From Paenibacillus sp. 453mf (GTDB lineage Bacteria; Bacillota; Bacilli; Paenibacillales; Paenibacillaceae), in NCBI RefSeq assembly GCF_900116105.1, contig NZ_FPAC01000001.1, positions 1,602,862-1,666,861 of the forward strand: a DNA stretch of 64,000 nt. The letters are read 5' to 3'. The position numbers and the translations under genes were made by a program. Shown in pieces: positions 27,631 to 61,900 of this stretch; position 1 is the first letter of the stretch, and every line of letters starts with the position of its first letter. The notes under the pieces are model-generated. The model saw only the letters and a list, made by a program, of their open reading frames with translations, was not told where the DNA came from and did not search any database.

Positions 27631-27835
27631 TTAAACTAACCTGCCCGTTAGCTTAATGAAAAAGCTGTAAAATTTAATTAGATATCTATCTAATCGGTAA
27701 TAGGAACATGTTCTTGTCCATTCCGGCAATCGGTACAAGTTCTTGTCCTTGACTCGGGACACGAACTTGTACCGATAACATAAAAAAGCCGCTAAAATAG
27801 CGACTTCAATGGGAATATGTTCTTGTCCCCCGACA
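27631..27835 (-). repeat. Type A dispersed repeat, full copy (A1)
   Basis: Modules in order on the plus strand: CTAACCTGCCCGTTAG dyad (27635-27650), a TTAGAT-TATC-TAATC dyad near 27680, a long hairpin GGTACAAGTTCTTGTCC/GGGACACGAACTTGTACC (27732-27773), the terminator-like GCCGCTAAAATAGCGAC (27788-27804; T-run on the minus strand), and GGGAATATGTTCTTGTCCC (27811-27829) then CGACA. Read on the minus strand it follows the DUF2247-like gene and precedes the next gene. Confidence 0.85.
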
Positions 27836-27932
27836 ATTAGGTATTATGAATAAAAGGCATCTAAAAGGTTAAACCAACCGCATAGCAAGAAAAGCCTTGA
27901 GGATTGCTGCCCTCAAGGTCATAACATGTTAA

Positions 27933-28439
27933 TCATTTCTTATGATATTTATCTTCTTCGTGTGTTAAATATGATTTCCATTCACGAAATAATTGTGCAA
28001 TATTTTCCTCATACAAATCAGATATAGGTTTTTGACTAGGCATATATCGTACAAATTCAGATATTTCAGTTGGATAATCAAAATCCGCATATATCACTTC
28101 GACCATGCCAAGAGGATCGGAATATTGAGTCTTATGCTCGTATAACCAACTCAAAATTAAATACAGAAACTTTTTCTTGCTCCCATTGTAATCTCTCTCT
28201 GTGGAGCTTATTATTCTGTCTAAATAATACAGCACTCCTTTATCATCTTTTAGCCAAGTTAAATCTATTACATCTTTAGAAGGATTGGGTTCTTTGCTAA
28301 TAATTTCAAAGGCATGTTCAATAGCTGATATTCTTGACATGAAACCATTTTCAATAGCAAATGAAACATCATTCCAAGTTAAATTAGTTAACTTATCAAC
28401 ATATTCATAAGGTAAAACTACGTTCAGAGTATTCATCAT
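27933..28439 (-). CDS. DUF2247-like protein, possible immunity protein
   Basis: 168 aa. The opening LNVVLPYEYVDKLTNLTWNDVSFAIENGFMS and the following FEIISKEPNPSKDVIDLTWLKD match my memory of the DUF2247 family, which is often found near polymorphic toxin genes. It is soluble with no catalytic motif. GAGGTG precedes the ATG. An RHS remnant (47.1 kb) elsewhere in the island fits with scattered toxin-immunity debris. Role inferred only. Confidence 0.6.
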   Translation of the reverse strand: MMNTLNVVLPYEYVDKLTNLTWNDVSFAIENGFMSRISAIEHAFEIISKEPNPSKDVIDLTWLKDDKGVLYYLDRIISSTERDYNGSKKKFLYLILSWLYEHKTQYSDPLGMVEVIYADFDYPTEISEFVRYMPSQKPISDLYEENIAQLFREWKSYLTHEEDKYHKK

Positions 28440-28476
28440 TCACCTCTTTAGTTTGGCTTACCATTTATAATCCCAC

Positions 28477-28686
28477 CTACTTTAAACAATTGGTGCAAAT
28501 AGTGATACCCAATTCATTATTACATTTCTTTTCAATACTCTTAAGAAATATTGCATACCTCTCGCATAATTCTTGATAAAAAATTATGTCTTCAAGGTCC
28601 TCAGATTCATCGATTTTTTTAGATAGTCTAAGCAATTGTATTTTTATATCTTGATGTTTTCTTCGATAACTCAATAATTTTGACAT
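28477..28686 (-). CDS. Unknown 69-aa protein with C-terminal CxxC
   Basis: AAAGGAGGGG lies seven bases before the ATG, the best ribosome site in this area. The product is a charged helical protein (RRKHQDIKIQLLRLSKKIDESEDLEDI), with cysteines in ELCERY and ITICTNCLK. The CxxC could bind zinc. It lies 37 bp before the DUF2247-like gene on the same strand, so the two may be co-transcribed. Confidence 0.6.
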   Translation of the reverse strand: MSKLLSYRRKHQDIKIQLLRLSKKIDESEDLEDIIFYQELCERYAIFLKSIEKKCNNELGITICTNCLK

Positions 28687-29618
28687 AAATACCCCTCCTT
28701 TATATTAGAAAGTGTATCAAAACATAAATTTAACAACCTAAATTTAAAGTGAACTCTGGTTTCAATGGTGTATCGTGAATTTACTTGCAGATCATTAAAA
28801 TATTTAAGGAAAGAAGTTACCGATAAACACAATAAATTGTGGCTCAACCCGCAACGGGTGTATCGCTCAATTTCCCGCCCATCCGATCTCCGTTCTCAAT
28901 GCGGGAATCGTTGGCAATCAAATATTGAAGAATGGGCCAGCCCTAGACTATATAACCGGAAACCAGGTTGCGGGCAAGGCAGTGCTTTCCGTAAGTTCCG
29001 CAGGCGGTCCGCTGGGAGTTTAGCTCGCTGTCGCATTTGCAGACTATCGTATGCAATTTACACGGAATCAACTGTTCACAGTGGATTTCGATCGGGTATG
29101 GATTGAACACGTACGGTCCCGGTGGCGCTCCTTTAGAGGCTTCAAAGGGAATAGTTATTATCCCCCAACAACATGGGTTCTATCATACAAACTCTTCTTG
29201 TGCCATCAACGAAAATAATCGACAGTTTGGGTGGCGATAACCTTCCCAAGTGGTGAGAATATCCAGAGAATATGCCCATGCCCCTCTTCCAGATCATACA
29301 ATGGATCAGAGAGAGTCGTGTGCCCGTGTATTAATATACAAGTTGCCTTTTAATCTATGATCAAATCTGCAGAAAACTTTACCAAGTTACACTGGGATCT
29401 AACAAGTCGCCAATTCTAGGAGCACTTCTACTCATAAGTTTTTGGATTAATTACCAATAGACTAATTTTATTGATTTTCTATATAATGGTATTGCTTATG
29501 TATGGCCATACATAGTAAATAGGGATGCCCGTTGCCCAAGTAACTAAAAAGTGGCAAATAAATGCAAAATAGTTCTACTATGAAAAATATCAACTGTATT
29601 TTAGAAAGGGGAGAAATT
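28687..29618 (+). pseudogene. Degraded coding remnant at ~28835-29110 in a long gene-poor stretch
   Basis: The plus frame reading PISVLNAGIVGNQILKNGP at ~28890-28945 then continues through a stop (after GGPLGV, ~29020) to AVAFADYRMQFTRNQLF and DFDRVW. The LNAGIVGNQIL text faintly recalls SGNH/GDSL hydrolases, but I cannot assign it. GC is higher than in the surroundings, as expected of an imported and decayed gene. Nothing else is supportable between 28.69 and 29.62 kb. Confidence 0.4.
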
Positions 29619-30146
29619 TTGAGAAAATTTATTAGTGCGTTACTCCTTATTATATTATTTGTGTCTATCTTCTTAAATGTTTCTATGTTGTATCAAGATT
29701 ATAAATCGACTCCAAACAATGGTGATATAAAAGGTTCTTATGAGTTGTTTATGGTTGACATTCGTGCTGCGCAAACAAGTCTGAATACCTATTTTGAGGA
29801 AACGGATGAAAAAAAGAAACAACTAGCGCTTTATGACTTGCTAAGTTCCACTTACAAGATGGATTCGGATTTAAAACTTCTAGATGTAAAAAGTAAATTG
29901 TTGTACAAAAGAGGGCTATCCCCTCTTCAGAGTTTTACTTCAGATTTTGTAATAATTTCTTCACGATTATTTACTAGTTATACCATGGAAGGTAAAGATA
30001 TTACGGGTGATGCGAAAAAATACAAATCCTACATTGATGATTTGAATAATGTGTTAAAGGATACAACCATGCAAGACAAGAAGTCCACCAAAAAAGTTTT
30101 CGACAAAGTAGATAATTACTCAAGAAATCATACTCCAATTTATTAG
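29619..30146 (+). CDS. Membrane-anchored protein of unknown function
   Basis: Best start is TTG at 29619 (GGGGAG upstream), giving 175 aa; the frame is open from 29562, but that start lacks a ribosome site. Residues ~2-22 are a single membrane helix (FISALLLIILFVSIFLNVSML), then an exterior helical domain of ~150 residues, rich in K, D and S. No known motif. It is the only plus-strand gene between 27 and 31.7 kb, flanked by repeat A2. Confidence 0.6.
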   Translation: MRKFISALLLIILFVSIFLNVSMLYQDYKSTPNNGDIKGSYELFMVDIRAAQTSLNTYFEETDEKKKQLALYDLLSSTYKMDSDLKLLDVKSKLLYKRGLSPLQSFTSDFVIISSRLFTSYTMEGKDITGDAKKYKSYIDDLNNVLKDTTMQDKKSTKKVFDKVDNYSRNHTPIY

Positions 30147-30244
30147 GTTAAAACATGCTTACCTCTCCTTGAGGCAGTGGTTCCATTTAAGAGGAATGTC
30201 CTGTATCATTGTATTTATCGTGGCTCAAACTACATGTGCTTCTA

Positions 30245-30376
30245 TTTAGATATCCATCTAATCGGCAATCGGATTAAGTTCTTGTCCTTGGCTCGGGACA
30301 AGAACTTGTACCGATAAAATAAAAAAAGCCGCTAAAATAGCGACTTCAATGGGAATATGTTCTTGTCCCTCGACAC
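30245..30376 (-). repeat. Type A dispersed repeat (A2), lacking the CTAAC dyad
   Basis: Contains the TTAGAT...ATCTAATC dyad, the hairpin AAGTTCTTGTCC/GGGACAAGAACTT, GCCGCTAAAATAGCGAC and GGGAATATGTTCTTGTCCC, in the same order and orientation as A1. Confidence 0.85.
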
Positions 30377-30515
30377 CACTAGCTCAATATCTCTATAACC
30401 GTTGTGAAGATACAAGGCAACTTCATAAAATTTCATTATGTTTATCCCTCCCGAGAAACCCTTATAATCATCAAATACCATACCAACTTTACTTTCACTC
30501 GAATCTTACATTAAT

Positions 30516-30612
30516 GTAACTAACCTGCCCGTTAGCTTAATGAATTAGCGGTCAGATACCGATTAGATATTTCATCTAATCGGTAATCGAATTATGTTCT
30601 TGTCCCCCGACA
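30516..30612 (-). repeat. Type A dispersed repeat (A3), internally deleted
   Basis: CTAACCTGCCCGTTAG dyad (30520-30535), a longer ACCGATTAGATA...ATCTAATCGGT dyad, then ATTATGTTCTTGTCCCCCGACA. It lacks the GGTACAAG hairpin and the terminator-like module. It directly follows the recombinase gene when read on the minus strand. Confidence 0.85.
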
Positions 30613-30696
30613 ACCGTTCCCCAGTTGAATACCGATAAACGGTTAGTCTCGTTTGTTTGTAATCATTTATAATCTATAACACGTCTGTTCAAGTTT

Positions 30697-31647
30697 TCAA
30701 AGTAACGATTCAACTTCTGATTGCAGATCCACACGAGTCGCCTTGAAGTAAGTCATCGTTGTGTTCAGACTATCGTTCCCCATAATTTGCGCCAAACGGT
30801 GTAACGGCGTATTCTCTGCCATTACGTAACCAAACCGGTGCCGTAGATCATGGGCGCTTAATCCTTCGAGCATTGATGCTTTCATATATTTTTGAATCAA
30901 ATGTCGTAAAGCGCGTTCAGTCAATCGATCACCAGTTTTCTCCGAAGGAAACAGATATTGACTGTCCGGAGGGAGTTCTTCCAAATATTTTTCTATAGCA
31001 ACTCTGCATGTAGCGTTCAAAGGTACTTCACGCTGTTTATTTCGTTTTCCGGATCGAACTATAAGCTGGGCACTATGTGTTCCGATTTGAATATCCTTTG
31101 GAGCTAAATCACATAATTCCATTGTCCGCAAGCCGGTGTGAAGCATCACGATTAGGATAGTCTGATCCCGATGAGAACCGCCTTGCTCAGCTGCAGCGAT
31201 CAATGCAGCTTCTTCTATATCTGTCATCTTGCGCGGGCTTACCTTTTCTTCGGGAATCAATTTGACCTGCTTGGAAGGATCGCGGTGAATCCTGGATTCC
31301 GACATAGCCCATTCAAAAAAACGTTTTAGAGTTATAAGCCGGCGGTTAATGGTCGCTGGTTTCAATTCCATCACTTTTTGCGCGGAATCTCGATATCGTA
31401 TTATTGTTGAAGCGGCAACTTCTTCAATTCGGAATATAACTTCTTCCTCTTGGTTGTAGGCTTTCTCAAACCAACTAATAAAATGTTTTAAGTCGCTTGC
31501 GTACTCTTTTAATGTTTTAGGATTCAAATTTCCATGGGTGGTGAGAGCGAAAACAAAGTCCTGAATCGTTTGCTTACCCTGTTCTGAAATCCCGTTCGCT
31601 TCTTTCATTAGCAAAGCCTCCAAATCTTGACTTACATTAGCGGACAT
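30697..31647 (-). CDS. Tyrosine recombinase (XerC/D-like integrase)
   Basis: 316 aa: an N-terminal SAM-like core-binding domain (~25-120) and the catalytic domain. The active-site residues visible are Arg I in HTGLRTMELCDL, HxLRH in SAHDLRHRFG and the Tyr nucleophile in NTTMTYFKAT. The usual second His/Trp (G-H before the Tyr helix) reads IMGNDSL, i.e. Asn. It lacks the extra ~20-residue patch that marks integron IntI. Its ATG is embedded in one of two 14-bp direct repeats. It may be the integrase of an integrative element covering part of this island. Confidence 0.88.
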   Translation of the reverse strand: MSANVSQDLEALLMKEANGISEQGKQTIQDFVFALTTHGNLNPKTLKEYASDLKHFISWFEKAYNQEEEVIFRIEEVAASTIIRYRDSAQKVMELKPATINRRLITLKRFFEWAMSESRIHRDPSKQVKLIPEEKVSPRKMTDIEEAALIAAAEQGGSHRDQTILIVMLHTGLRTMELCDLAPKDIQIGTHSAQLIVRSGKRNKQREVPLNATCRVAIEKYLEELPPDSQYLFPSEKTGDRLTERALRHLIQKYMKASMLEGLSAHDLRHRFGYVMAENTPLHRLAQIMGNDSLNTTMTYFKATRVDLQSEVESLL

Positions 31648-31682
31648 GGTATTCTTATATTAACCTAAACATTAGCGGACAT
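31634..31682 (-). repeat. Two 14-bp direct repeats over the recombinase start
   Basis: ACATTAGCGGACAT occurs at 31634-31647 and 31669-31682, 35 bp apart. The first contains the recombinase ATG; the second gives a five-codon decoy frame. It could be an operator, a recombinase binding site or a local duplication. Confidence 0.75.
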
Positions 31683-31775
31683 CAACTTGTATGCATTGAT
31701 AACACCTAATGATCGTTAATATATATTAGCTGTCAATGAAATGGTTATGGTTAAATTTATTTTAGGAGGAATTCT

Positions 31776-31979
31776 ATGCAAACAGGTACAGTTAAATGGT
31801 TTAATGCTGAGAAAGGCTTTGGCTTTATCGAAATCGAAGACGGAAATGACGTATTCGTTCATTTCAGCGCGATTGAAGGTGATGGTTACAAGTCATTGGA
31901 TGAAGGTCAACGCGTTCAGTTCAATGTGGCCCAAGGTAATCGTGGACCGCAGGCTGAGAACGTTTCTAAAATATATTAA
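31776..31979 (+). CDS. Cold shock protein (CspA family)
   Basis: 67 aa, the standard length, with AGGAGG before the ATG. RNP1 KGFGFIE and RNP2 VFVHFSAI are intact. It is a single-stranded nucleic-acid chaperone of the cytosol. The end ([15 protein letters not shown]) is usual for the Firmicute family. It has its own terminator. Confidence 0.96.
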
Positions 31980-31986
31980 AATCTTT

Positions 31987-32017
31987 TAAGCTGTCCTAAA
32001 AGTGGGATAGCTTTTTT
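31987..32017 (+). terminator. Intrinsic terminator after csp
   Basis: AAGCTGTCC-TAAAAGT-GGGATAGCTT followed by T; one G-U pair. Confidence 0.88.
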
Positions 32018-32092
32018 GTTTATTCTTGGTTGCGTCCATACAAGAGGTCTTTCATTTTCATAATTTATAATCATAAAAGTGAGGTATCGCAA

Positions 32093-32365
32093 ATGAATAA
32101 TGAAGAATTAATAGAAGCAGTGTATAAGTCTAGTGGGTTTTCAAAAAAGAATGCCGAAAAAGCTGTAAGTCAAGTGCTGGACTCCATCTTTGAAGCTTTA
32201 AAGCAAGGAAAAGAAGTTCAACTAGTAGGCTTCGGGAAGTTTGATGTCCGCTATCGTGAAGCACGCATGGGAAAAAACAGCAAAACCGGTGAAAAGGTGC
32301 TGCTTCCGGCAGGTAACGTTCCTGTATTCACGGCAGGCTCTGCTCTTAAAGAAGCTTTAAATTAA
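32093..32365 (+). CDS. hup: HU family DNA-binding protein
   Basis: 90 aa from the ATG at 32093 (GTGAGG upstream). The HU signature VQLVGFGKFDVRYREARMGKNSKTGE and the conserved end GSALKEALN are present. It bends and packages DNA as a dimer. Residues are shifted from the housekeeping form (KNSKTGEKVLLPAGNVP), so it may be an accessory copy acquired with the island. Confidence 0.93.
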   Translation: MNNEELIEAVYKSSGFSKKNAEKAVSQVLDSIFEALKQGKEVQLVGFGKFDVRYREARMGKNSKTGEKVLLPAGNVPVFTAGSALKEALN

Positions 32366-32371
32366 GCTTAA

Positions 32372-32699: not shown

Positions 32700-32758
32700 C
32701 AACCGGCATAACTGCTCCTTCCTGTTTTTGAACTAACGCTTCCCCTCAGTTTAATCAT
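32700..32758 (-). repeat. Type B dispersed repeat, decayed copy (B1)
   Basis: AACCGGCATAACTGCTCCTT then TTTGAACTAACGCTTCCCCTCAGTTTAATC; the same order as the other B copies but with the left half missing and the dyad eroded. Confidence 0.6.
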
Positions 32759-32907: not shown

Positions 32908-32931
32908 GTTAACCTGACCGTTAGCTTAACG
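32908..32931 (-). repeat. Solitary CTAAC/GTTAG-type dyad
   Basis: GTTAACCTGACCGTTAGCTTAAC, the end module of the dispersed repeats standing alone. Confidence 0.65.
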
Positions 32932-36300: not shown

Positions 36301-36531
36301 TTATTCATCCACCTTCATTTTAAACTGATTGTTCATTTTTTATTTTGATCGTTCAATCAAATTTTATTTTAAGCACTTTTCAATTTCCTGTCAATGTTTT
36401 GTTCTTGGCCCTCTACATTTCTTGAAAATTCTTGATCAGTCTAATCATCTTTGCTAACCTCCGTCAATGAAATCATATCGGGAATGAAATAAAATTCTTG
36501 TCATTGTGTGTTGACTTTTAATTAGGTTTGT

Positions 36532-36570
36532 GACAAATCGGTAATCGGACCATTTTCTTGTCCCTCGTCA
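36532..36570 (-). repeat. Type A repeat fragment (A4)
   Basis: AATCGGTAATCGGACCATTTTCTTGTCCCTCGTCA: only the outer modules remain, adjacent to the start of the IS110 remnant. Confidence 0.65.
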
Positions 36571-37213: not shown

Positions 37214-37301
37214 GGGTAGCTTAACAAAAAAGGAGCAGCGCCGACTGGCAAACTGCTCCATTACTGTTTTGATCTAACGTTTCCCGTTATCTTAATCATA
37301 A
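37214..37301 (-). repeat. Type B dispersed repeat (B2)
   Basis: GGTAGCTTAAC, then a GGAGCAG...CTGCTCC hairpin (37231-37259) holding an inner GCCGACTGGC, then GATCTAACGTTTCCCGTTATCTTAATC. Confidence 0.8.
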
Positions 37302-37425: not shown

Positions 37426-37524
37426 TCACTCCTCGTCTTTGATTTCGCCGGCTAGTTCCACGATGGTTCCAAATCCATAGCTTCGCTTGTTATGCGAGGT
37501 CATCGTCCCTACCAGCTCAAACAT
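37426..37524 (-). CDS. Small ORF between repeat C1 and the IS110 stub
   Basis: 32 codons opening with MFELVGTMTSHNKRSY and closing with IVELAGEIKDEE, ending 4 bp before the IS110 start. The composition looks like real protein, but there is no clear ribosome site. It may be the end of another gene or incidental. Confidence 0.3.
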   Translation of the reverse strand: MFELVGTMTSHNKRSYGFGTIVELAGEIKDEE

Positions 37525-37717
37525 GGAGTTTTAGAGGTCGTGGGAGAACCGTTTTTATTACGAGGTCAAAGCCCCTAAAGCCCCTGCGTTCTCCCGGCTT
37601 CCCCCATCGTAAAACGACCACAAAAAAAGGCCAACCAGTAATTACTGGCTAACCTGATAATAAGAAAAGCAGCTAAAATAGCGACTTTCAATGGGAATAT
37701 GTTCTTGTCCCCCGACA
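37522..37717 (-). repeat. Repeat C, copy 1 (~195 bp, structured), ending in a type A tail (A5)
   Basis: Nearly identical to 44901-45096. Nested pairings: GGTCGT (37537-37542) with ACGACC, GGGAGAAC with GTTCTCCC, and the palindrome CCAGTAATTACTGG. The last ~60 bp (AGCTAAAATAGCGACTTTCA... to CGACA) are the right modules of type A. Confidence 0.85.
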
Positions 37718-37769
37718 AACGTTAATCGACACTACTACTGAATTTTCATTTAGTCCCCTTTCTTGCAGT

Positions 37770-37806
37770 AAAAAAGCAATTCGGATTTAATCCGAATTGC
37801 TTTTTC
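37770..37806 (-). terminator. Bidirectional terminator after the AlaRS gene
   Basis: AAAAAGCAATTCGGATT, then AATCCGAATTGCTTTTT; a 15-bp perfect stem with A and T runs on its sides. Confidence 0.88.
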
Positions 37807-37942
37807 TTTGAATACTGTGCTCCGGTACCGCCAACGGAAAGGCGAAGCGATGTCAAACCCTCTTCGTTTGCCGGATTTATCATTCATCCTGGATTCCCGG
37901 CAACTCATAACGTTGTTACAAATGGCAATCCTAAAACATCAG

Positions 37943-39823
37943 CTATTGTTCCGCGTTCTGGAAATATTTATTAATTACTCCTTTAATCCTTCTAACTCCA
38001 GCAGCAGAAGATTGTTCTTTTTTAATACTGAACTTTCCTAAGTTTGTTGTATCTTCTACATGAGGTCCTCCACATACTTCTCGACTCCAAACTTTCCCTT
38101 CGTTATCTTTGATTGTATACACCTTAACGATATCCGGATATTTATCCCAAAAATTCCCTTCAACATTACTTTCTTTCGCTTCAATTTTAGGCATCTCTGA
38201 AATATAGGTAACTGCTTTTGATAAAATCGCATCATTCACATACTTTTCCACCTCAGCTATTTGCTCTGGCGTAAGTTTTTCATCATGATTGAAGTCAAAC
38301 CGTAATCGTTCTGAAGTAATATTACTTCCTTGTTGATGAACATGATCACCTAAAACTTCCCTTAAACCAGCAAGTAATAAATGAGATACCGTGTGCAGCG
38401 CTGTTGTTTCTGTTGAATGTTCAGCTAATCCACCTTTAAATTTACCCGCAGAAGCAGTTCTGCTCTTTTCAGCATGTTTCTTTGCCGCCTCTATATAAGA
38501 CGCCTTGCCCTCCACGCTATATCCATTTTCAGTTAGAAACTCTTCCGTCAACTCCAAGGGAAACCCATATGTTTCGTAAAAATAAAAGGCATCCGCACCT
38601 GTAACTTTACCCTTATTCTTAAGATGTTTTTGTATTTCAATTTCTCCTTGTTGTAAAGTTCTATAGAAAAGATTTTCTTCCTTATTTACTATTTCGATAA
38701 CTTTCTTTTTATTACCGATCAAATCTTCATAAGCTGTTGCTTCATCTATATAAACTTCAGACAACTCACCCACAAAACTTCCTTGTATACCTATTTTTTT
38801 ACCTGCACGAATCGCCCTTCTTAATAACCTTCTTGTTATATACCCTGCATCACTATTAGCTGGCTCCGCACCATCATTAATTAGAAAAGTAGCCGCTCTC
38901 ACATGATCAAGTATGATTCTAAACGACTTTAAATCGTCAGTATATTGTTTACCACTTAACTCCATCAATTTTTTCTTGGGATTAAGGAAGAAAGCCGTAT
39001 TATAAATATCCTTGTCACCATTAAGGGCTGTTGCAACCCTTTCTAATCCGCCTCCATAATCAATATTGGGATTTTGCATTTTTACAAATCCTGTGTCTTC
39101 TTTTTTGTAACACATAAATACGTTGTTCCCAATTTCTAAAAACCTCTCGCTTACAGAAGCAGGATGATCCAGTGAATCACCGCCTGGTTCAAGATCATAG
39201 AACATTTCACTATCAGGCCCACCCGGTTCACCAACAGGCATATCCAATGGACTTCCGGCTCGGCTCCACCAATTTTCTTTTTCATCGTATAAGAATATTT
39301 TCCCACCTCTAGATGCCCCATATTGATAGGGATCATCTTCAATGATAGGTTCTATACCAACTGATTTAAATTTTTCTGACCAGATTTGAATGGCTTCCGT
39401 ATCTTTCTGTATATTCAAATCATCACTTCCTATAAAAGCACTGATATACAGCCTGCCAGGATCAATTCCTAATTCGATAATATGCCAATTCCAAATGGCA
39501 TCGATTTGCTTTTTCTTATAGTTATTTTCATTTGCTTCAAACTCCCATCGACCTATCATTTCAAAAAATGTCAGATGCGACGTATCTCCTACTTCATCAA
39601 TATCCACTGTCCTTAAACACTTCTGAATATTAGCAATCTCATTACCTATCGGATGCTTTTCCCCCAATAAATATGGAACCATAGGTTGCATTCCACTTCC
39701 TGTAAACAACGTTGAGGGATCATTTTCTGGTAACAAGCTAGAAGAGGGCACTTGGCTAGCCCCTATTCCTTTCATAAAATCAATATATGACTTTCTTAAG
39801 TCATCTGGTGTCATTTTCACCAT
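37943..39823 (-). CDS. alaS: Alanyl-tRNA synthetase, short form lacking the C-Ala domain
   Basis: About 626 aa from the ATG at 39823 (GGAGG upstream); housekeeping AlaRS is ~875 aa. The class II catalytic domain (HPIGNEIANIQKCLRTVDID, TFFEMIGRWEFE, DYGGGLERV), the tRNA-recognition domain (GYITRRLLRRAIR) and the editing domain (HTVSHLLLAG with HxxxH, and VCGGPHVEDT with CxxxH) are all present. The protein ends after the editing domain (RRIKGVINKYFQNAEQ), so the oligomerising C-Ala is absent. A T-box leader precedes it. It is most likely a second, non-housekeeping AlaRS carried by the island; a resistance role against an AlaRS inhibitor is possible but unproven. Confidence 0.92.
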   Translation of the reverse strand: MVKMTPDDLRKSYIDFMKGIGASQVPSSSLLPENDPSTLFTGSGMQPMVPYLLGEKHPIGNEIANIQKCLRTVDIDEVGDTSHLTFFEMIGRWEFEANENNYKKKQIDAIWNWHIIELGIDPGRLYISAFIGSDDLNIQKDTEAIQIWSEKFKSVGIEPIIEDDPYQYGASRGGKIFLYDEKENWWSRAGSPLDMPVGEPGGPDSEMFYDLEPGGDSLDHPASVSERFLEIGNNVFMCYKKEDTGFVKMQNPNIDYGGGLERVATALNGDKDIYNTAFFLNPKKKLMELSGKQYTDDLKSFRIILDHVRAATFLINDGAEPANSDAGYITRRLLRRAIRAGKKIGIQGSFVGELSEVYIDEATAYEDLIGNKKKVIEIVNKEENLFYRTLQQGEIEIQKHLKNKGKVTGADAFYFYETYGFPLELTEEFLTENGYSVEGKASYIEAAKKHAEKSRTASAGKFKGGLAEHSTETTALHTVSHLLLAGLREVLGDHVHQQGSNITSERLRFDFNHDEKLTPEQIAEVEKYVNDAILSKAVTYISEMPKIEAKESNVEGNFWDKYPDIVKVYTIKDNEGKVWSREVCGGPHVEDTTNLGKFSIKKEQSSAAGVRRIKGVINKYFQNAEQ

Positions 39824-39900
39824 GTTCAATACCTCCATTTCAATTATTATTTATTCTCGGAAAATTATTTTGCAAATAATTAAACGAGAAGAAATAAAAC

Positions 39901-40190
39901 AAAAAAAGCCCTGAGCTGACATATTTCTTGTCAACTTAGGGCGAACTATTATGTCCGTGTTACCACCTAATTTCAGATTTCTCTGCACTCTATCAATACG
40001 GGATATCTCCGATATTGTTTCCTGAATAACGGTGGAACTCCGTTGAAGCCTACTAAGATTCCTCTGTTCGGTTCACAGCTCCGAGACTGCTTCACTATTA
40101 GATCAATGAAGATTCGCACCAACCATCTTCTCTCTGTGAGATCCCTAATACCTACTATTTCTCATCATAGCCTTTTCGTTTTAAGTTAAA
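39901..40190 (-). promoter_or_regulatory. T-box riboswitch leader
   Basis: Read on the minus strand: Stem I apical text GATGGTTGGTGCGAATC, the specifier arm around GTGAAGCAGTCTCGGAGC (GCA and GCT are alanine-codon candidates), the T-box AATTAGGTGGTAACACGG (39955-39972) and the terminator stem TAGGGCG.../...CAGGGC with a run of T (39901-39941). Uncharged tRNA(Ala) would favour the antiterminator and switch the synthetase on. The end of Stem I at the 5' side is approximate. Confidence 0.88.
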
Positions 40191-40960
40191 CCAATGGTAT
40201 CACACCCAACTTGCTCCGTAAATTAACATTTTTGTTAAATTATGAAAAGGAAGAAATTAGTTGATCTGCCCTTTTCTTTGAAGGTTATTGCTTGTTAAAG
40301 AGATAGGATTCATTCGTTGATAAACTTCACAAATTCACTTTTCAGCCAATGCTGATTGGTTATTGATCCAGAAGGAATAGGTATCCACCAAAACACAATT
40401 CGTAAGAACCAAGAACTTTAAACCAACACTGGGTGTGCTTCTGAGAGAGGGAATTGCTGAACAATTACCTGGAAAGCGGTCAGCAGGAGGCCTTCCGTCA
40501 GCCTTTGATTTGTCCAAAGCAGTTCGGTAAGAAACTTGTTCGCAGTGGAGCCTCACTAGCCATAACTGCCGTGCTTTTATATTCGCAATTGAAAACGATT
40601 GAGAATCAAAATTATCTCTACAACATGGAATTTATCAATTTGACTTTCATAATAGCATTTAAAGGCATATTACATTATCAATTGTTTTCACTTTGTATTA
40701 TTTCAAAAATTCTTTTTTTATATATGCCTCAACAGTTTTTTGAAGCTGCTTATGCTCATAATTGCCATTTTTTGTGGTGTGCAAGATTTCATTGATTGAA
40801 TATTCATTTTATCTAATTCATGCTGATATGGGCATTCATAGTTAAAATGTTCCACTTCTTTGGCTGCTAAATGCTAAAACTCAATCCTGCAAGATGAACT
40901 GCTCTTTTTAAAGGTGTGGTAATCCATTGAAATTAGAGGAGCATTTCGAGTAAAAAACAA
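40191..40960 (-). other. Gene-poor stretch upstream of the T-box
   Basis: About 770 bp between the T-box promoter and the CPBP protease gene. A short frame on the minus strand near 40340-40460 (VLVDTYSFWINNQSA) may be a gene remnant, but I cannot assign it. No ribosome-site-supported ORF was found. Confidence 0.4.
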
Positions 40961-44900: not shown

Positions 44901-45096
44901 CATGGTGTTTTGGAGGTCGTGGGAGAACCGTTTTTATTACGAGGTCAAAGCCCCTAAAGCCCCTGCGTTCTCCCGGCTTCCCCCATCGTAAAACGACCAC
45001 AAAAAAAGGCCAACCAGTAATTACTGGCTAACCTGATAATACGAAAAGCAGCTAAAATAGCGACTTTCAATGGGATAATGTACTTGTCCTCCGACA
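44901..45096 (-). repeat. Repeat C, copy 2, ending in a type A tail (A6)
   Basis: Differs from copy 1 (37522-37717) at only about eight of ~195 positions, most in the type A tail. The identity ends abruptly at CATGG on the left and CGACA on the right. Another ~400 bp on the left (44.48-44.90 kb) are AT-rich promoter DNA without a gene. Confidence 0.85.
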
Positions 45097-45213
45097 AAAA
45101 GCCGTCCTTTTTTAATTTAATGTCTCCCATTTGCCTAATGACCTGGCATATATGATAAAGTTCATCTTAACGGGTCTATAAGCGAAAAAAAGGAGCCATC
45201 TTTGATAGTTTTT

Positions 45214-48941: not shown

Positions 48942-49014
48942 TTAAAAAAAGAACAGCTGCCGATCGGCAAACTGCTCCATTCTATTTTGAACTAACGTTT
49001 CCTGTTAGTTCAAC
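48942..49014 (-). repeat. Type B dispersed repeat (B3), containing the GNAT stop codon
   Basis: GAACAGCTGCCGATCGGC-AAACTGCTCC hairpin, then TTTGAACTAACGTTTCCTGTTAGTTCAA. Read on the minus strand, the TAA stop of the acetyltransferase lies inside the CTAAC/GTTAG dyad. Confidence 0.82.
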
Positions 49015-49481
49015 CTAAACTCCATTTTTCTACTCTTCGTTGTCATCCCGAATGATTCATAAAATAAAATTGCAGCAGCATTGTTCTCCGATACCCCTAA
49101 TTCAATACTATCAACTTTCAGACTTCCTCCGAAATCAATTACATATTGCATAAGTTTCTTTCCAACGCCCTTATTTCTGTACGTTTCGGAAACAGACAAA
49201 CTATTTATATATAAAATCTTTCTCGCATTAACAAAAGAATTTTCAATTATTTCTTCTTCTTTCGTCACAACCAGGCCGATTATTTCTAAGCCTATGGTAG
49301 CAACAAAAATATGCTGTTTGGGATCAATCAGCTGGCATAAGAAGAATTCCTTCCCGACTGGAGTTGAGTTTTTTTTGTACAAATCGGGTCTTTCAAAAAC
49401 GTGGAGATCATGAATCTGCCTAAATAAAGGCAATAAAGACTCGTAGTCATCTTGATGAGCGTTTTTGATAGATATATCCAT
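49005..49481 (-). CDS. GNAT family N-acetyltransferase
   Basis: 158 aa. The acetyl-CoA motif A is SLSVSETYRNKGVGKKLMQYVIDF (R/QxxGxG/A), followed by motif B LGVSENNAAAILFYESFGM. It transfers an acetyl group to an amine of unknown identity. Its stop lies in repeat B3. It starts 51 bp after the SecA-like gene on the same strand. Confidence 0.92.
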   Translation of the reverse strand: MDISIKNAHQDDYESLLPLFRQIHDLHVFERPDLYKKNSTPVGKEFFLCQLIDPKQHIFVATIGLEIIGLVVTKEEEIIENSFVNARKILYINSLSVSETYRNKGVGKKLMQYVIDFGGSLKVDSIELGVSENNAAAILFYESFGMTTKSRKMEFRLN

Positions 49482-49531
49482 ATATTAATGCCCTCAGCTA
49501 ACGATGAATTGAGTGTTCGCTCTCGTCCCGA

Positions 49532-51625
49532 TTATAATTTTCCCCACCCAAATATCGGCCTTAACATTTTGCGAATATAATAAGCAAATACGGTCGTGGT
49601 AGTCCATGAGCTGCGCTTATTCTGTATGTATTGATCGTTAATAATATACGTCCGAGTGGAAGTAGGATTCTTTAGACCGAACATTTCCCACTTCGCTGGA
49701 TCATCTGAACCTTCGAGCTTTATAAGCATATTCGTAGACTCACTATTTACTTTAGCCGGAATTTGCTCGTATGCTCGGGTGATTTGCGCATGAAATTCGT
49801 CGATCGGATTACGGCTAGCAAGGCTCTCCAGATGAATACCTTCGCGAAGGTAAGAAACGTATTCTAGATGGTCAGCCCAGAACTGGTCGATATAAAATAG
49901 CCTTACCCGCTGCTCCGAAGGGCTCATCGGCTTCTCGCCTTTCAAAATTCTGAGTCTCTCCTCGTATAGAATTCGCCTCTGATCCTCCAACATATCCGAA
50001 TAACCGTTCAGTTCCTTTTGTATATCGAAGTTTTGGCCCATAATAACACGCTGAATATGGGCGATTTTGCTGTGGAGTACCGGCTCTTCGAGAGCTTCAT
50101 CCTGCCTGGGCTTGCGAATCATTTTATCAATGCCAAACCGAAGCAACAACTCATCCTCCAAGCTTACGAAAAATACGGAAGCTCCGGGGTCGCCTTGGCG
50201 GCCGGAACGCCCGCGCAGTTGGTCGTCGATCCGCACGCTTTCGTGCACATGTGTACCAATCACGTACAATCCGCCTAACTTGGCGACAACTTCTGCTTGC
50301 GTGGGTTTGCCACCCCCTAGCCGAATGTCGACGCCGCGTCCCGCCATATTCGTAGATACCGTCACCGCGCCAATTCCTCCTGCATTGGCGATAATCCTGG
50401 CTTCTTCTGCGTCATTTTTTGCATTAAGTACTTGACAAGGTACGTCGGCAATCGCTAGCGCCTTTGCTAGTATGTCAGACTCCTCAACGCTTGAAGTGCC
50501 AATTAGAATTGGACGTCCCGTCCTATGAACGGACGAGATTTCGTTTACAAGTGCCTTAAGCTTGGCTTCTTTATGGGTATAAATCCGGTGCGGATGGTCA
50601 ATCCGTATGTTTGGACGGTTCGGTGGAATTTGCACTACCTGCAGCGAATAAATATCTTCGAATTCTATTGCGGAAGCGTGCGCAGTAGCCGTCATTCCGC
50701 AAATCTTCGGATATAGGCTTATGAAGTGTTGAAGGGTAATCGTACCGAGAATTTTCCCGCCGGATTTTAGCTGTAGTCCTTCTTTGGCCGCAAGCGCGGC
50801 TTGCAGCCCTTCCGCTTTGGTAGATCCCGCTTCATTCAAATATACATTCCGCATAAACTCGTCGAAGTCGTAATGCTCATATTGAACGATCTGCTTGGCC
50901 ACTTCTGCGAAACAAGTGCCCTCGCTTATGGAAAAGCCCGGCTCGCCGGCAATGACTAGCGGCACCCGTGCTTCGTCCAGAAGAAGCGAATCCGCTTCGT
51001 CGACGATAACGTAGTGGAAGGGACGATGCACGGTTTGGGCTTCTCCCAGTGCAATCGTGTCGCGCAAATAATCGAATCCCGCCTCTTTAGCCGTAACATA
51101 GGTTATATCCGCGGCATACGCTTCTCGTTTCTCGGACAAGCTCATGCCCGCTTGGACCGATTTTACCGTTAATCCGAGAAAACGATAGATCGGACCCATC
51201 CAATCCGCATCCCTCTTTGCCAAATAATCATTAAAAGTCAGCACATGAACACCTTCGCCGGTCAGCGCATTTAGATAAGTAGGCATAACCGCAGAGAGCG
51301 TTTTTCCTTCGCCCGTATGCTGCTCAATTAAAAATCCCTCGTGCAGAGCGATGGCAGCCATGATCTGGACAGCGTAGGGCTGTAATCCAAGCGTTCTCTT
51401 CGCTGCCTCGCAGACTAGCGTATAGGCATCGACCAGCAGCTCGTCCAAAGGAGTACCCGATTTTGCTTCCTTTTTCAGCCTGAGAGATTCTGCTTTTAAC
51501 TGCTGGTCGTCCCATACTTCCAAATTCCCTTTTCTAATGAGTTTCGCTTTGTCCTGATAGATCTTCAGCTTGTTCTGAGTTTCACGGTTATTGATTTTTT
51601 GTATCAACTTGGCGGCTAAATTCAT
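49532..51625 (-). CDS. SecA-like preprotein translocase ATPase, accessory type
   Basis: About 697 aa from the ATG at 51625 (GAGGAGGG upstream); an in-frame upstream ATG has no ribosome site. Walker A is IEQHTGEGKTLSAVMP, the DEAD-like motif VIVDEADSLLLDEARVP, and motif VI is DQLRGRSGRQGDPG. The cross-linking and scaffold parts are shortened, and the zinc-binding tail of housekeeping SecA is missing; the end is instead a basic hydrophobic stretch, TTTVFAYYIRKMLRPIFGWGK. It would power export of a small set of proteins. No SecY2 or clear substrate gene is adjacent, though two membrane proteins of unknown role lie upstream. Confidence 0.9.
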   Translation of the reverse strand: MNLAAKLIQKINNRETQNKLKIYQDKAKLIRKGNLEVWDDQQLKAESLRLKKEAKSGTPLDELLVDAYTLVCEAAKRTLGLQPYAVQIMAAIALHEGFLIEQHTGEGKTLSAVMPTYLNALTGEGVHVLTFNDYLAKRDADWMGPIYRFLGLTVKSVQAGMSLSEKREAYAADITYVTAKEAGFDYLRDTIALGEAQTVHRPFHYVIVDEADSLLLDEARVPLVIAGEPGFSISEGTCFAEVAKQIVQYEHYDFDEFMRNVYLNEAGSTKAEGLQAALAAKEGLQLKSGGKILGTITLQHFISLYPKICGMTATAHASAIEFEDIYSLQVVQIPPNRPNIRIDHPHRIYTHKEAKLKALVNEISSVHRTGRPILIGTSSVEESDILAKALAIADVPCQVLNAKNDAEEARIIANAGGIGAVTVSTNMAGRGVDIRLGGGKPTQAEVVAKLGGLYVIGTHVHESVRIDDQLRGRSGRQGDPGASVFFVSLEDELLLRFGIDKMIRKPRQDEALEEPVLHSKIAHIQRVIMGQNFDIQKELNGYSDMLEDQRRILYEERLRILKGEKPMSPSEQRVRLFYIDQFWADHLEYVSYLREGIHLESLASRNPIDEFHAQITRAYEQIPAKVNSESTNMLIKLEGSDDPAKWEMFGLKNPTSTRTYIINDQYIQNKRSSWTTTTVFAYYIRKMLRPIFGWGKL

Positions 51626-51822
51626 CGGAATTTGATCCCTCCTCGTATATATACCCGACTCTAAAGTGGCTAAAGTATACTCGAAATCTATAAACAATAG
51701 CCTTTATATCTCATACAATTACAAAACTTTGCCCTTATCCTTTTCTAAATTAGATACGCTATCTATACCATAAAGTTCCAACATGGAGCTGTTCTACAAA
51801 TACTGAGTTGTTAGCCCAATAA

Positions 51823-51917
51823 AGTTAACCTAACAGATAGCTTAATGAAAAAGAAGCAGCTGCCAACCGGCGAACTGCTCCTTCTATGTTGAACTAACGT
51901 TTCCCGTTAGCTTAATC
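51823..51917 (-). repeat. Type B dispersed repeat, most complete copy (B4)
   Basis: GTTAACCTAACAGATAGCTTAATG, the hairpin GCAGCTGCCAACCGGCGAACTGC, then TTGAACTAACGTTTCCCGTTAGCTTAATC. The outer dyads pair with each other as well as with themselves. Confidence 0.85.
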
Positions 51918-51957
51918 TTTGCACTCTAATCTAATTTCATAGATAATAATCAATCAT

Positions 51958-52512
51958 TTAAAACAACGTCTTCATTCCCATATCCACGTATTTAGAATCT
52001 TCTAATTTACTTTGAAATTCAGTTCTCCATTTATTAGGTGAATTAATTAATGGAGAGTCGGCTTGCCCCTGCCACATTTCTACATCTTCTCTAGATACTA
52101 CATACGATAAGTCAGAAAATGTATAACGAATCTCCTGCAAGTTATCAATTAATGCAAAGGTTGCTGTTGCATTATATATTAATGAACGTTCCATCAGTTC
52201 TGGTGTGATGTCAGCAGTAGAAGATTTATATAATATATTTGCTGTCAGCGTATCAGGAAAGAGTTCAAGTTCACTCTCAATATTGCCTAGAGGAAGAGAA
52301 TGAATTAAACCCGATAAATTCCCCGCATTACCCATGTATTTATTTTTATATCTGATGGATTCTTCAATATTGTGAGTTAGGGGGTCAGTCTGTTGAGCTG
52401 CATAGACTTGATCTTCGCGTTCCATTCTCGGCAATAAGATTCCATAAACGGTGACAAAGAGAATAACCCCTATCGTTGCGAGAACAAAAATCGCTGTGTT
52501 TTTTTTATTCAT
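51958..52512 (-). CDS. DUF4825-like membrane-anchored protein
   Basis: 184 aa with one N-terminal membrane helix (TAIFVLATIGVILFVTVYGILL). The following YKNKYMGNAGNLSGLIHSLPLG is typical of DUF4825 domains (KxxYxGD/NxSxxxxL). It is the last gene of a three-gene operon behind PadR and a permease-prefix protein; its start overlaps the previous stop. Function unknown, probably envelope sensing. Confidence 0.75.
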   Translation of the reverse strand: MNKKNTAIFVLATIGVILFVTVYGILLPRMEREDQVYAAQQTDPLTHNIEESIRYKNKYMGNAGNLSGLIHSLPLGNIESELELFPDTLTANILYKSSTADITPELMERSLIYNATATFALIDNLQEIRYTFSDLSYVVSREDVEMWQGQADSPLINSPNKWRTEFQSKLEDSKYVDMGMKTLF

Positions 52513-53183
52513 TAAGATTCACCTACCATATGTTTTTGTTTTATTTTCAATGAAGCTTGGAACAATAATGGAATAATACCAGTAATTAAGGGCCAAATAT
52601 AATGAGTTGCAAGAACTGCAAACTGATAGGGTCCTAGTATCTGGATACCTCTTCCAAACCATATATCGCTTCCAAAATGGACAGCTGTCGTGAACAACGA
52701 TTGGATAAGGAAAAATACAGTCCAAATAGCCCAAGCTATATTGCGATGACGCTTATTCGAGACATCATGAGAAATAGCTACAACTTTATTATTTTGATTT
52801 GAATTAGTATTCATAAGATAACTTATATAACAGACTGCTGCCAAAATCGGCAGAATGACGCTTAAGAGAATACCTGCTTGTTCGATAAGACTAAAAGGTA
52901 TAGTTACAACCCAGGCAATTAAAAAATAGAGCGCTGCGGTTTGAAGAAGTTCCGCTTTGTATTTACTCACGTAATATGGGAAATGTCCTTCCACCAAGCC
53001 TTCTACACTCTTGATGCTACTTTTTGCTTCTTGTACTGCAACTTCGTATTCCACACCATGTGCTGTCAAATCATCTACTTTGGCTTGAAGATTGCTTAGA
53101 ATCTCATTTCTAAGTTCTTGCACTTGCCGAGTCTTTTTATATCCGGTAAATAAATGGTCCACATATCTTTCTAATTTGTTCAT
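52512..53183 (-). CDS. Permease-prefix (HAAS-type) membrane protein
   Basis: 223 aa. The N-terminal ~80 residues (LERYVDHLFTGYKKTRQVQELRNEILSNLQAKVDDL) are the HAAS/permease prefix domain 1 that partners PadR-like regulators. Four to five membrane helices follow. It overlaps the PadR gene by 4 bp and probably senses a membrane signal and relays it to PadR. Confidence 0.82.
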   Translation of the reverse strand: MNKLERYVDHLFTGYKKTRQVQELRNEILSNLQAKVDDLTAHGVEYEVAVQEAKSSIKSVEGLVEGHFPYYVSKYKAELLQTAALYFLIAWVVTIPFSLIEQAGILLSVILPILAAVCYISYLMNTNSNQNNKVVAISHDVSNKRHRNIAWAIWTVFFLIQSLFTTAVHFGSDIWFGRGIQILGPYQFAVLATHYIWPLITGIIPLLFQASLKIKQKHMVGES

Positions 53184-53530
53184 TTTGCTCCCCCCTCTGA
53201 TTCAATTAATTGATCAATTAGCTTTTTGGCGTTTTTCCATGCTAAGAGGTTATGTAAATATACTTCATGACCAGAAGAAGTAATAGTGTAATATTTACGC
53301 CTACCTCCATGGCTTTCATCTCCCCAGTACGATTTTATGTGACCATGGGATTCCAATCTTTTGAGGCTCGTATAAAGTGATGGTTCTTTTAATTCATACT
53401 GGCCATAACTATATTTCGAAATAGCTTTTATAATTTCATAGCCATAGTTATCTCCTTCGGTTAAAACACGTAAGATGATCGTATCCATGTTACCGCGAAG
53501 CAAATCTCGGCTGATACTGCTTTCCGTCAT
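53180..53530 (-). CDS. PadR family transcriptional regulator
   Basis: 116 aa from the ATG at 53530 with GGAGGTG ten bases upstream. The winged helix is MDTIILRVLTEGDNYGYEIIKAISK ... LKEPSLYTSLKRLESHGHIKSYWGDESHGGRRKYYTIT. It is the first gene of the operon and sits just downstream of a 36-bp dyad, so autorepression is likely. Confidence 0.93.
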   Translation of the reverse strand: MTESSISRDLLRGNMDTIILRVLTEGDNYGYEIIKAISKYSYGQYELKEPSLYTSLKRLESHGHIKSYWGDESHGGRRKYYTITSSGHEVYLHNLLAWKNAKKLIDQLIESEGGAK

Positions 53531-53546
53531 TTTGTTCACCTCCACA

Positions 53547-53582
53547 TACATCGTACCACATATTACTATGTAGTACAATGTA
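53547..53582 (-). promoter_or_regulatory. 36-bp dyad, probable PadR operator
   Basis: TACATCGTACCACATA, TTAC, TATGTAGTACAATGTA: 14 of 16 positions are complementary. The ATGT-N8-ACAT form matches known PadR sites. Confidence 0.72.
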
Positions 53583-53710
53583 ATATGTGGCGAGATGCAA
53601 TTTCATCTTAGAATAAACTATAACTACTACCGGTTTTCTGTTTAGTAATGACTGCCAACAAAAAAAGTAACTAATTGCTTTGATTGGCAGTCCTGGTGCA
53701 ATGCTTTTTT

Positions 53711-53886
53711 AAACTAACCTGCCCGTTAGCTTAATGAAAAAAGCTGTAAACTTCAGTTAGATATCTATCTAATCGGTAATCGGTACAAGTTCTTGTCCTT
53801 TGCTCGGGACACGAACATGTACTGAAAAAACAAAAAAGCCGCTTAATTAGCGACTTTCAATGGGAATATATTCTTGTCTCCTGACA
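53711..53886 (-). repeat. Type A dispersed repeat, full copy (A7)
   Basis: All modules as in A1: CTAACCTGCCCGTTAG (53713-53728), TTAGATA...TCTAATC, GGTACAAGTTCTTGTCC/GGGACACGAACATGTAC, GCCGCTTAATTAGCGAC, GGGAATATATTCTTGTCTC and TGACA. Same orientation. Confidence 0.88.
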
Positions 53887-55865: not shown

Positions 55866-56278
55866 TCATGTGAAATAATGAAAATTTTTTATAGCTTCCC
55901 CGATCCAATCTAATAACTCCTTAGCATATCCTTCAAAGATAAAGATATCTTGTTCTATCCTATTAATCCCTTCTTTCCAGCAATCCAAATTGAAATCAAG
56001 AATTTCAATATCTCCTCGGACCAACAAATGGAGAAATAATGAAGTCCACACCATTTTTTTATAATAGTTGCCGTCTCAATTGTACGTTTAGTTGGACTGA
56101 CAAGAACTAAATCTTCAGGATCAATTTTTATTTCATTTCGTAGCTGCATTACTTGGAATTTACCGTACTCTGTAAGACTAGGATGCAGAGTATTTAACCG
56201 ATTTGGATAATCGTTGAGAATTCTATGATTGTATTGAGCAATCCTGCCCGTTAGATTAATGAAATTCCATGAAAACAC
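55866..56278 (-). pseudogene. Histidine phosphatase remnant
   Basis: In one frame, LHPSLTEYGKFQVMQLRNEI and LVLVSPTKRTIETATI are the middle of a phosphoglycerate-mutase-like phosphatase; the RHG start is missing, replaced by text encoded in repeat A8 (WNFINLTGRIAQ). The continuation lies in a second frame (EILDFNLDCWKEG) after a frameshift near 56050. Confidence 0.72.
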
Positions 56279-56394
56279 AGTTAGATACTTATCTAATCGG
56301 TAATCGGTACGGCTCGGGACAAGAACTTGTACCTATAAATAAAAAGCCTTCAAAATAGCGACTTCCAAAGGGCCTATGTTCTTGTCCTTCGACA
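56239..56394 (-). repeat. Type A dispersed repeat (A8)
   Basis: CCTGCCCGTTAGATTAATG, TTAGATACTTATCTAATC, a shortened hairpin (GGTACGGCTCGGGACAAGAACTTGTACC), AGCCTTCAAAATAGCGACT and TATGTTCTTGTCCTTCGACA. It abuts and has replaced the start of the phosphatase gene. Confidence 0.85.
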
Positions 56395-56651: not shown

Positions 56652-57150
56652 TCAATCACCCAAAATATTAGATACTTTGGACATGATACTGGAACTATTT
56701 ATATAAGTCCATGGATAATATTATCAAAACCATTACAATATTAAACAAGTAGGAAAGGAGATGAGATTATCTTTAGTTGCAAATTTTTTCTATTAAGTCT
56801 CTTCTCACTTGAATATAATTTCTTTCCGTCTATACTTCGGGGTGAATACAATGTGGCATTTGCACATTACTTTGTGTGAGCTAGGCTGTAGCTCTTGTTT
56901 GCCATCTAAGACCATTCCTTTTTTGAGCCTGAACATCTAATGCCGTCTTTTATACCAAACGCTGCAGAATTCTATACCTGTACCGGACGTAATAAGGGCG
57001 TAGAAAGGCAAGCCAATCCGTTTAAGCTCCTTCTTGTTCATGCCGATGCTGTCTTAAGAAAATAAAGTCTTAGACTACCGCTGAATCATTGAACTAACGT
57101 CTCTCGTTAGCGGAATGATATCGACACATTCTTGAATTATCCTCCCATTT
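56652..57150 (-). repeat. Gene-poor stretch with a type B dyad (B5, 57089-57115)
   Basis: TTGAACTAACGTCTCTCGTTAGCGGAATG is the end module of type B standing alone, just downstream of the HxlR gene in transcription order. The remaining ~430 bp show no supportable gene. Confidence 0.6.
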
Positions 57151-60376: not shown

Positions 60377-60381
60377 TAGGA

Positions 60382-61308: not shown

Positions 61309-61346
61309 TATGTTATCCACCCTTTCTGAATATAATAATCGAAAAC

Positions 61347-61406
61347 AAACAACGTGTTGTTTATCTCTATGTATTTTATTATAATTACAAAACAAAGAGT
61401 CAACAA
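61347..61406 (-). promoter_or_regulatory. ABC operon promoter with operator dyad
   Basis: Minus strand: TTGTTG (61401-61406), 17 bp, TATAAT (61378-61383), then the dyad AAACAAC-N2-GTTGTTT (61347-61362) at the start site: a repressor site in the classic TetR position. Confidence 0.68.
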
Positions 61407-61485
61407 TAATCAATAATGTCTATTGTGCTGGATATCCAACACCATTTGAGATTGTGTACGTTTTAAAAAAAGGAGTGAATTAGTT

Positions 61486-61700
61486 TTGCGAGAACAGGAT
61501 AAGGATTTACGAATTATTCAAACGAAGGAACTCATTCGAATAGCACTGATTTAATGGCAAAATGCCAAGAAGAAATTTTGGCTGACATGGCTAATATTGT
61601 TGAACAGAACTTTACCAATATGAACCGTAAAACAACAACGGATGGAGGAAGAAGCTATTCGCTGAACAGCAGTAGTTTCAAAGATATTTTACTGCCTTAA
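61486..61700 (+). pseudogene. TetR regulator, broken
   Basis: TTG start with AAAGGAG; 22 codons (REQDKDLRIIQTKELIRIAL) give the first TetR helix, then a stop. A second frame starting in the same place (61554-61700) carries a mid-protein piece (AKCQEEILADMANIVEQNF). The helix-turn-helix itself is deleted. It is divergent from the ABC operon it presumably repressed. Confidence 0.78.
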
Positions 61701-61823
61701 GGCTTCAAAAGGTATAGCACCTACATTTAATATAGCGTTTCGAGCAGAGACCCTTCTCTTGCTGTGTATTCTTGAATGATACGTAGCAATTCTTCCGGGA
61801 AAATAACACAATTTCAGTTTATT

Positions 61824-61900
61824 AAAGTACCTGCCCGTTAGCTTAATTAATTTGATGTAAACTCCAGTTAGATATTTATCTAATCTGTAATTGGACCCAG
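61824..61900 (-). repeat. Type A dispersed repeat, left part only (A9)
   Basis: ACCTGCCCGTTAGCTTAATT, CCAGTTAGATATTTATCTAATC, then TGTAATTGGACC; the hairpin and later modules are absent. Same orientation as all other copies. Confidence 0.8.

Follow-up and report, generated by a model that had tools for sequence, protein, structure and literature searches.

The window analysed here is a stretch of 64,000 nt from Paenibacillus sp. 453mf, which was read together with 60 kb of flanking DNA on its left and 100 kb on its right (224 kb). It carries structured repeats of two families, type A and type B, that lie between genes and form an array from 27.6 to about 89 kb (window coordinates), i.e. extending past the window end; beyond about 89 kb, only stray modules such as one hairpin at 144.7 kb are found. 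The genes of this array are mutually unrelated and encode, among others, GNAT, SecA-like and TetR proteins, an alcohol dehydrogenase, an alanyl-tRNA-synthetase-like protein whose gene has its own T-box, ABC transporters and, to the right of the window end, DinB and MFS proteins. Comparison with the arrays of relatives suggests that the type B repeats probably serve as joints between gene cassettes, within a system of Paenibacillaceae that is likely integron-like and would be worked by a 280-residue XerD-like integrase.

A preliminary description of the window had reported both families, all copies being in the same orientation among genes mostly transcribed one way, with none in the first 27 kb. 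Matching of cores and ends recovers the families at these places, finds type B cores on the + strand only and type A equally one-way, and gives no core match before 27.6 kb; between 27.6 and 89.1 kb, 38 genes lie on the - strand versus 8 on the + strand. The copy at 32.91 kb, described as type B, is actually a solitary A core. Being nearly palindromic, the A core also matches the opposite strand wherever it occurs, and a single weak type A end lies on the - strand within the 30.3-kb copy. In the whole genome, a 21-base core pattern (at most two mismatches) has six matches, all on the + strand and all in the array, the backward control giving four.

The type B repeats are about 95 bp long. They consist of a left core, CTAACCTGCCCGTTAG, which is identical to the A core, a hairpin, for example GCAGCYGATC..GATCRGCTGC or GGAGCAGCTGCC..GGCAAACTGCTCC, and a right core (B core), CTAWCGTKTCCCGTTAG, followed by YTTAA. 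Matches to the B core number 141 across 17 array stretches from eight genomes, and 99 two-core elements were collected, including those of Paenibacillus urinalis plasmids; the hairpin is strong in 86 of 95 elements.

The evidence for exchange comes from the places where DNA shared between arrays starts and stops, which were compared first in the 17 array stretches and then in a 2.0-Mb set. Homology runs begin at the left border of the B core in 21 cases and stop just beyond it in 28, against 0.7 expected for each. A flank is common to both members in 66 pairs of B sites: the right one only in 24 (several of which derive from one cassette), the left one only in 41 and both in one. Of the 41 left-only pairs, 25 are comparisons of attI sites, and a type A repeat accounts for the sharing in some of the remaining 16. 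In type B, whole cassettes and not the repeat alone vary between sites. At the level of single bases, right-sharing pairs begin to exceed the background identity immediately past GTTAG, and left-sharing pairs show no more than background there; the rare variant GTTAACG travels with one cassette in three pairs, and the leftward differences of right-only pairs reach core positions 7 to 11. These data place the putative exchange in or beside TCCCGTTAG, the change of neighbours falling within the second core, at or just before GTTAG. Joins at a fixed base of the repeat, as envisaged in the preliminary description, would be concentrated in the B core in this between-species comparison, the exact base not being fixed.

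The window itself contains such changes of neighbours (Table 1). Across the B core at 51894, the left segment is common to G054 and the right one to G012, two of the 197 relatives (labelled with G-numbers) that make up the survey sample. Likewise, G054 has 129 nt, with one type B joint, between the segments 37754-40224 and 45107-45651, versus 4,883 nt here.

A candidate enzyme was found at the head of relatives' arrays. In G111, two nearly identical copies of a gene encoding a 280-residue tyrosine recombinase adjoin a B core devoid of A core and hairpin, and the DNA of these two integrase-attI copies diverges immediately past GTTAGTTTAAT. This integrase family is present in 39 of the 197 relatives (E<=1e-40), many copies being partial or containing stops. 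A protein collection yields 288 relatives (E<=1e-50); among the 120 matches listed, the named ones are nearly all from Paenibacillus and called integrase or XerD. A B core lies by pattern within 250 nt upstream of 17 of 24 members of the family but of none of 20 genes of another Xer-type family (dif-side Xer, see below) and of none of 22 relatives of a recombinase encoded in the window. Where the patterns match, this attI-like core is located 67 to 88 bp upstream of the integrase start codon. In 21 neighbourhoods of the integrase, 46 joints are found in 158 kb on the attI side versus 10 in 142 kb on the other side. Furthermore, joint spacers resemble the attI of their own platform more than other attI sites (mean edit distance, 1.65 versus 2.60; 2 of 2000 shuffles as good; 10 platforms, among which the alike relatives G005, G052 and G018 weigh heavily). 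Of the 36 genomes that have the integrase (three weak matches dropped), 31 show the joint pattern, versus 78 of the 161 without it.

The integrase is nearer to Xer proteins than to known integron integrases. The integron integrase model TIGR02249 of NCBIfam gives 93 bits in two pieces (cut-off 265), whereas the XerC, XerA and XerD models give about 197, also below their cut-offs; the title of the XerA model reads tyrosine recombinase/integron integrase. Among sequences of solved structures, an archaeal XerC-like protein and XerD rank first and the integron integrase 2a3v ranks sixth. A structure model (mean predicted local distance difference test, pLDDT, 85.6; predicted template modelling score, pTM, 0.59) is nearest to XerA, with 2a3v seventh; their TM-scores being similar, the fold alone cannot separate XerA from an integron integrase. 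The catalytic residues typical of such enzymes (R, K, HxxR, H, Y) are recognizable in the sequence. Between the attI-like core and the start codon, an inverted repeat allows the GGGAGG ribosome-binding site to pair with CCTCCC; pairing holds in 137 of 150 cells in 25 leaders, and one of the six pairs is changed on both sides. It is possible that this conserved inverted repeat (L169-L197) hides the ribosome-binding site and thereby exerts a translational control on the integrase.

No match to the integrase was found in the genome of the window (E<=1e-40) and, within the 224 kb around the array, the only match is an unrelated tyrosine recombinase gene at 30.7 kb (24% identity), which has no attI leader. 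The array of the window, whose genome has no integrase copy, would therefore be an orphan. The 30.7-kb recombinase was itself considered as the enzyme of the array and rejected: 17 of its 24 relatives have no nearby joint core, seven have one or two weak matches, and none of 22 has an upstream core. This gene (30697-31647, - strand) belongs to another family and sits in the array beside genes for cold-shock-like and HU-like proteins; the unit (30697-32568) is found as blocks of up to 1.87 kb with 76 to 86% identity in several Paenibacillaceae, and the recombinase alone in 24 loci.

Joints are far more widespread than the integrase. Using a tighter 22-base core pattern, type B cores were detected in 109 of the 197 relatives, the backward control being 0 in every row, with up to 34 copies per genome and a strong strand bias, for example 2 versus 32 in G054. 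The type A end pattern was found in 145 of the 197 (30 versus 0 in G034 and 38 versus 3 in G039, for instance; control, 0 to 3 matches per strand and genome). Five plasmid records, all from Paenibacillus, match the type B joint; the difference between the P. urinalis plasmids is a swap of about 20 kb and not of single cassettes. Within relatives, the copies lie in clusters across the genomes. Scattering of copies in both orientations, with target-site duplications, had been named in the preliminary description as the mark of an ordinary miniature inverted-repeat transposable element (MITE). The clusters are indeed scattered, but their orientation tracks the replication arm.

This relation was established by reference to the dif-side Xer gene, which 128 of all 197 genomes carry; within the genus it occurs in 73 of 75, a count that includes the window genome. 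A dif-like palindrome (at most three mismatches), which reads GGTTTACATAA-6-TTATGTAAACC and has no resemblance to the joint core, lies within a few kb of this gene in 17 of 20 seven-kb loci, with two matches in 320 kb of arrays. Because this palindrome is near and no B core is, dif-side Xer was taken as a marker of the terminus. Leaving aside five sites of G157, which lacks the marker, and with several genome lengths rounded, joint orientation fits the replication arm for 127 of 153 sites and 91 of 114 clusters in 33 genomes; up to a quarter genome from the marker, 94 sites fit versus 10 that do not. An orientation following the fork fits either a reaction on, or a selection against, one template strand.

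The same data bear on the possibility that another recombinase, for example the host Xer pair acting at dif, works the joints like those of pdif modules, the 280-residue integrase being a passenger. The joints turn orientation across the dif-side Xer gene, and its breadth (128 of 197) is nearer to that of the joints (109) than is that of the integrase (39). However, none of the 20 dif-side Xer loci has a nearby B core, the adjacent dif-like palindrome is unlike the joint core, and it is the integrase that has an upstream core in 17 of 24 cases. The probability of this alternative is considered very low, and dif-side Xer was rejected as the joint enzyme. Upstream of dif-side Xer, three aligned loci (L146, L160 and L161) have a perfect palindrome, ACTGCGTATAATATAAATTATACGCAGT.

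The repeats might also be a MITE-like family, a family resembling repetitive extragenic palindromic (REP) sequences, or structured terminators that settle between genes on the strand favoured by replication and transcription, gene reordering being incidental. The hairpin found in 86 of 95 type B elements, the co-orientation of most array genes (443 versus 135) and the behaviour of type A as a repeat with fixed ends would suit such a family. Nevertheless, the genes flanking type B switch blockwise at the core, and the joints are one-way even though 135 of the 578 genes of the arrays face in the opposite direction; as an account of type B, this explanation is disfavoured and very improbable. As the hairpin is strong, it may, as an additional role, act as a transcription terminator between cassettes.

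Several points weigh against a cassette system worked by the integrase. Exchange is suggested by the pattern of shared blocks alone, and no recombination was observed. Its fine position is not entirely consistent, as three right-only pairs differ up to core positions 10 to 11 and two left-only pairs differ at positions 8 and 9, the latter requiring putative point changes. There is no covariation between the two type B cores, though their arms can pair, RNAalifold found neither pairs nor a common fold on 47 joints, and a same-cassette arm test of two-core pairing is borderline (109 of 2000 shuffles). Long-range pairing of the cores in the style of attC is not supported and, the cores being devoid of covariation, a folded single-stranded attC is not claimed. 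Seven of the 24 integrase genes have no upstream core by the pattern used, five of the 36 integrase genomes have no joint pattern, and the spacer test leans on the alike relatives cited above. Farther than a quarter genome from the marker, the orientation rule is weaker (33 versus 16). Pooled array genes mostly point opposite to the layout of ordinary integron cassettes (443 versus 135). Finally, nine homology ends form a smaller pile about 24 bp before the B core, and 78 genomes have joints but no integrase. These last two observations, with the abundance and likeness of the repeats, favour homologous recombination between dispersed 95-bp repeats that would reorder genes with no dedicated recombinase. 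This is nonetheless unlikely: homology begins and stops mostly at the borders of a single 17-bp core and not across the repeat, arrays are headed by an integrase with the same core 5' of its gene, and joint spacers track attI.

If type B repeats are cassette joints, the integrase would recombine them with one another and with the attI-like site beside its own gene, the crossover would fall inside CCCGTTAG, and cassettes would leave as circles. The substrate might be either a single strand folded like attC or a double-stranded core like that of dif modules. The window array would then either have lost its integrase or have been filled by an integrase from elsewhere.

The likeness to integrons, taken in the sense given in passages of PMC8618304, is extensive. 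It includes a tyrosine recombinase gene with a simple 5' site (attI-like, 17 of 24 genes), cassettes that mostly hold a single gene in one orientation, an array of joints on the attI side (46 versus 10) and joints made of two cores with inverted arms around a hairpin, with exchange at one core only. The orphan arrays and the cassettes common to several species likewise recall integrons and clusters of attC sites lacking integron integrases (CALIN). However, the enzyme matches the XerC, XerA and XerD models twice as well as IntI and so falls outside the IntI family, the genes are mostly reversed relative to the joint, the arrays form several clusters on both replication arms, and a folded attC is devoid of covariation support.

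The pdif sites have inverted arms and a spacer of 6-8 bp, as do the joints described here. The pdif modules, which are worked by XerC/XerD and occur on Acinetobacter plasmids, also share with the present system genes bounded by short sites and an enzyme of Xer type. Here, by contrast, a single dedicated integrase has an attI-like site of its own, each joint combines two unequal cores with a hairpin, the chromosomal arrays are long, and the sites do not resemble host dif, the dif-like palindrome being unlike the joint core.

According to passages of PMC9024848, integrons are extremely rare in Firmicutes, with one complete integron (Limnochorda pilosa) and few clusters devoid of integrase. Searches of open-access papers found no description of a system of this kind in Paenibacillus. 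Here, 109 of the 197 relatives have the joint core, and a search based on IntI would likely miss the system. The chances are about even that it represents an integron that evolved a second time, in Paenibacillaceae, with a non-IntI Xer that acquired its own attI, attC-like cassettes pooled across the family, joints of two kinds (B and the longer A) and one-way arrays whose layout follows the direction of replication. If true, Gram-positive bacteria would have a gene-collecting machine whose enzyme differs from the integron integrase known so far. This would provide a second, independent case for identifying the essential features of integrons, i.e. joint folding, fork-facing strand, attI design and integrase control. 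The findings also suggest that this genus of soil bacteria harbours a large reservoir of unsorted cassette genes.

The gene-capture role proposed in the preliminary description is thus supported for type B, by shared DNA bounded at the core and by the integrase with an attI-like site that heads relatives' arrays, whereas it is not shown for type A. Type A elements consist of an A core, variable dyads and a right end, TGTTCTTGTCCC-CGACA; besides those in Table 1, a right end lies at 36400 (2 mismatches). Ends are oriented like B cores in 63 of 64 matches. An A core lies at most 300 nt to the left of the end in 32 of 63 copies (random, 11%) and a B core at most 130 nt to its right in 4 of 63 (random, 2%). 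The 63 copies have sharp element ends, only two homology starts fall in the 12 bp at the right end, and pair comparisons are mixed; a role of type A as a cassette joint was thus looked for but not demonstrated, and the leading reading is a repeat family, MITE-like, REP-like or a structured terminator. No match to the first type A copy was found among phage records. Whole-module loss among copies, already described, is seen in type A. Modules are also swapped, as in a 198-nt block (37522-37719 and 44901-45098) in which another left module, GGAGGTCGTGGGAGAACCG..., is fused to a type A end.

Elements that settle at attC sites include group IIC-attC introns and IS1111-attC. By having the A core, the orientation and the neighbourhood in common with the joints, type A resembles such joint-targeting elements; it differs in encoding no protein, and its insertion joint is unproven. 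Insertion sequences of the IS1202 family insert at pdif, as stated in part of PMC10132070. In the P. urinalis plasmids, genes encoding group II intron reverse transcriptases are separated from an A core by about 100 bp (L167, positions 18538 and 43464; same in L168), which is reminiscent of introns targeting attC sites.

Table 1. Repeats and cassette segments of the window (mismatches to the B core, or to the right-end pattern with at most 3 allowed, in brackets)
Feature	Position	Strand	Remarks
Full type A element	27634..27835	+	A core 27636, dyads, end TGTTCTTGTCCCCCGACA at 27818
Type A element without A core	30241..30375	+	end 30358
Short type A element	30518..30612	+	A core 30520, one dyad, end 30595
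Degenerate type B core	32733..32754	+	(3)
Solitary A core	32909..32929	+	given as type B in the preliminary description
Degenerate short type A element	36517..36570	+	end 36553 (2)
Type B joint	37226..37298	+	hairpin and B core 37274-37295 (1); left core decayed
Type A end with different left module	37522..37719	+	96% identical to 44901 copy; end 37700
Segment with alanyl-tRNA-synthetase-like gene and T-box leader	37754..40224	-	95% identical in G054
Type A end with different left module	44901..45098	+	end 45079 (2); then decayed B core at about 45118-45140
Segment	45107..45651	-	95% identical to G054, where it comes next after the 37754..40224 segment
Type B joint	48945..49016	+	hairpin and B core 48992-49013 (2); left core decayed
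Cassette segment with SecA-like gene	49494..51883	-	about 91% identical to G054; stops at B core
Complete type B joint	51823..51918	+	degenerate A core 51825-51845, hairpin 51853-51881, intact B core 51894-51915 (0)
Three-gene cassette (one gene with DUF4825)	51894..53739	-	94.5% identical block in G012 with other neighbours; starts at B core
Type A element	53712..53886	+	A core 53714, end 53869 (3)
Type A element	56237..56394	+	A core 56239, end 56377 (1)
Degenerate type B core	57094..57115	+	(4 to 5)
Partial type A element	61824..61902	+	A core 61826 and first dyad

Two further observations concern the content of the array. The alanyl-tRNA-synthetase-like gene at 37943-40177, with its T-box leader (identified with Rfam), is a second gene of this kind carried as array cargo. 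Between two array repeats, the region 36598-37112 was read by eye as a transposase remnant, which presumably belongs to the IS110 family.

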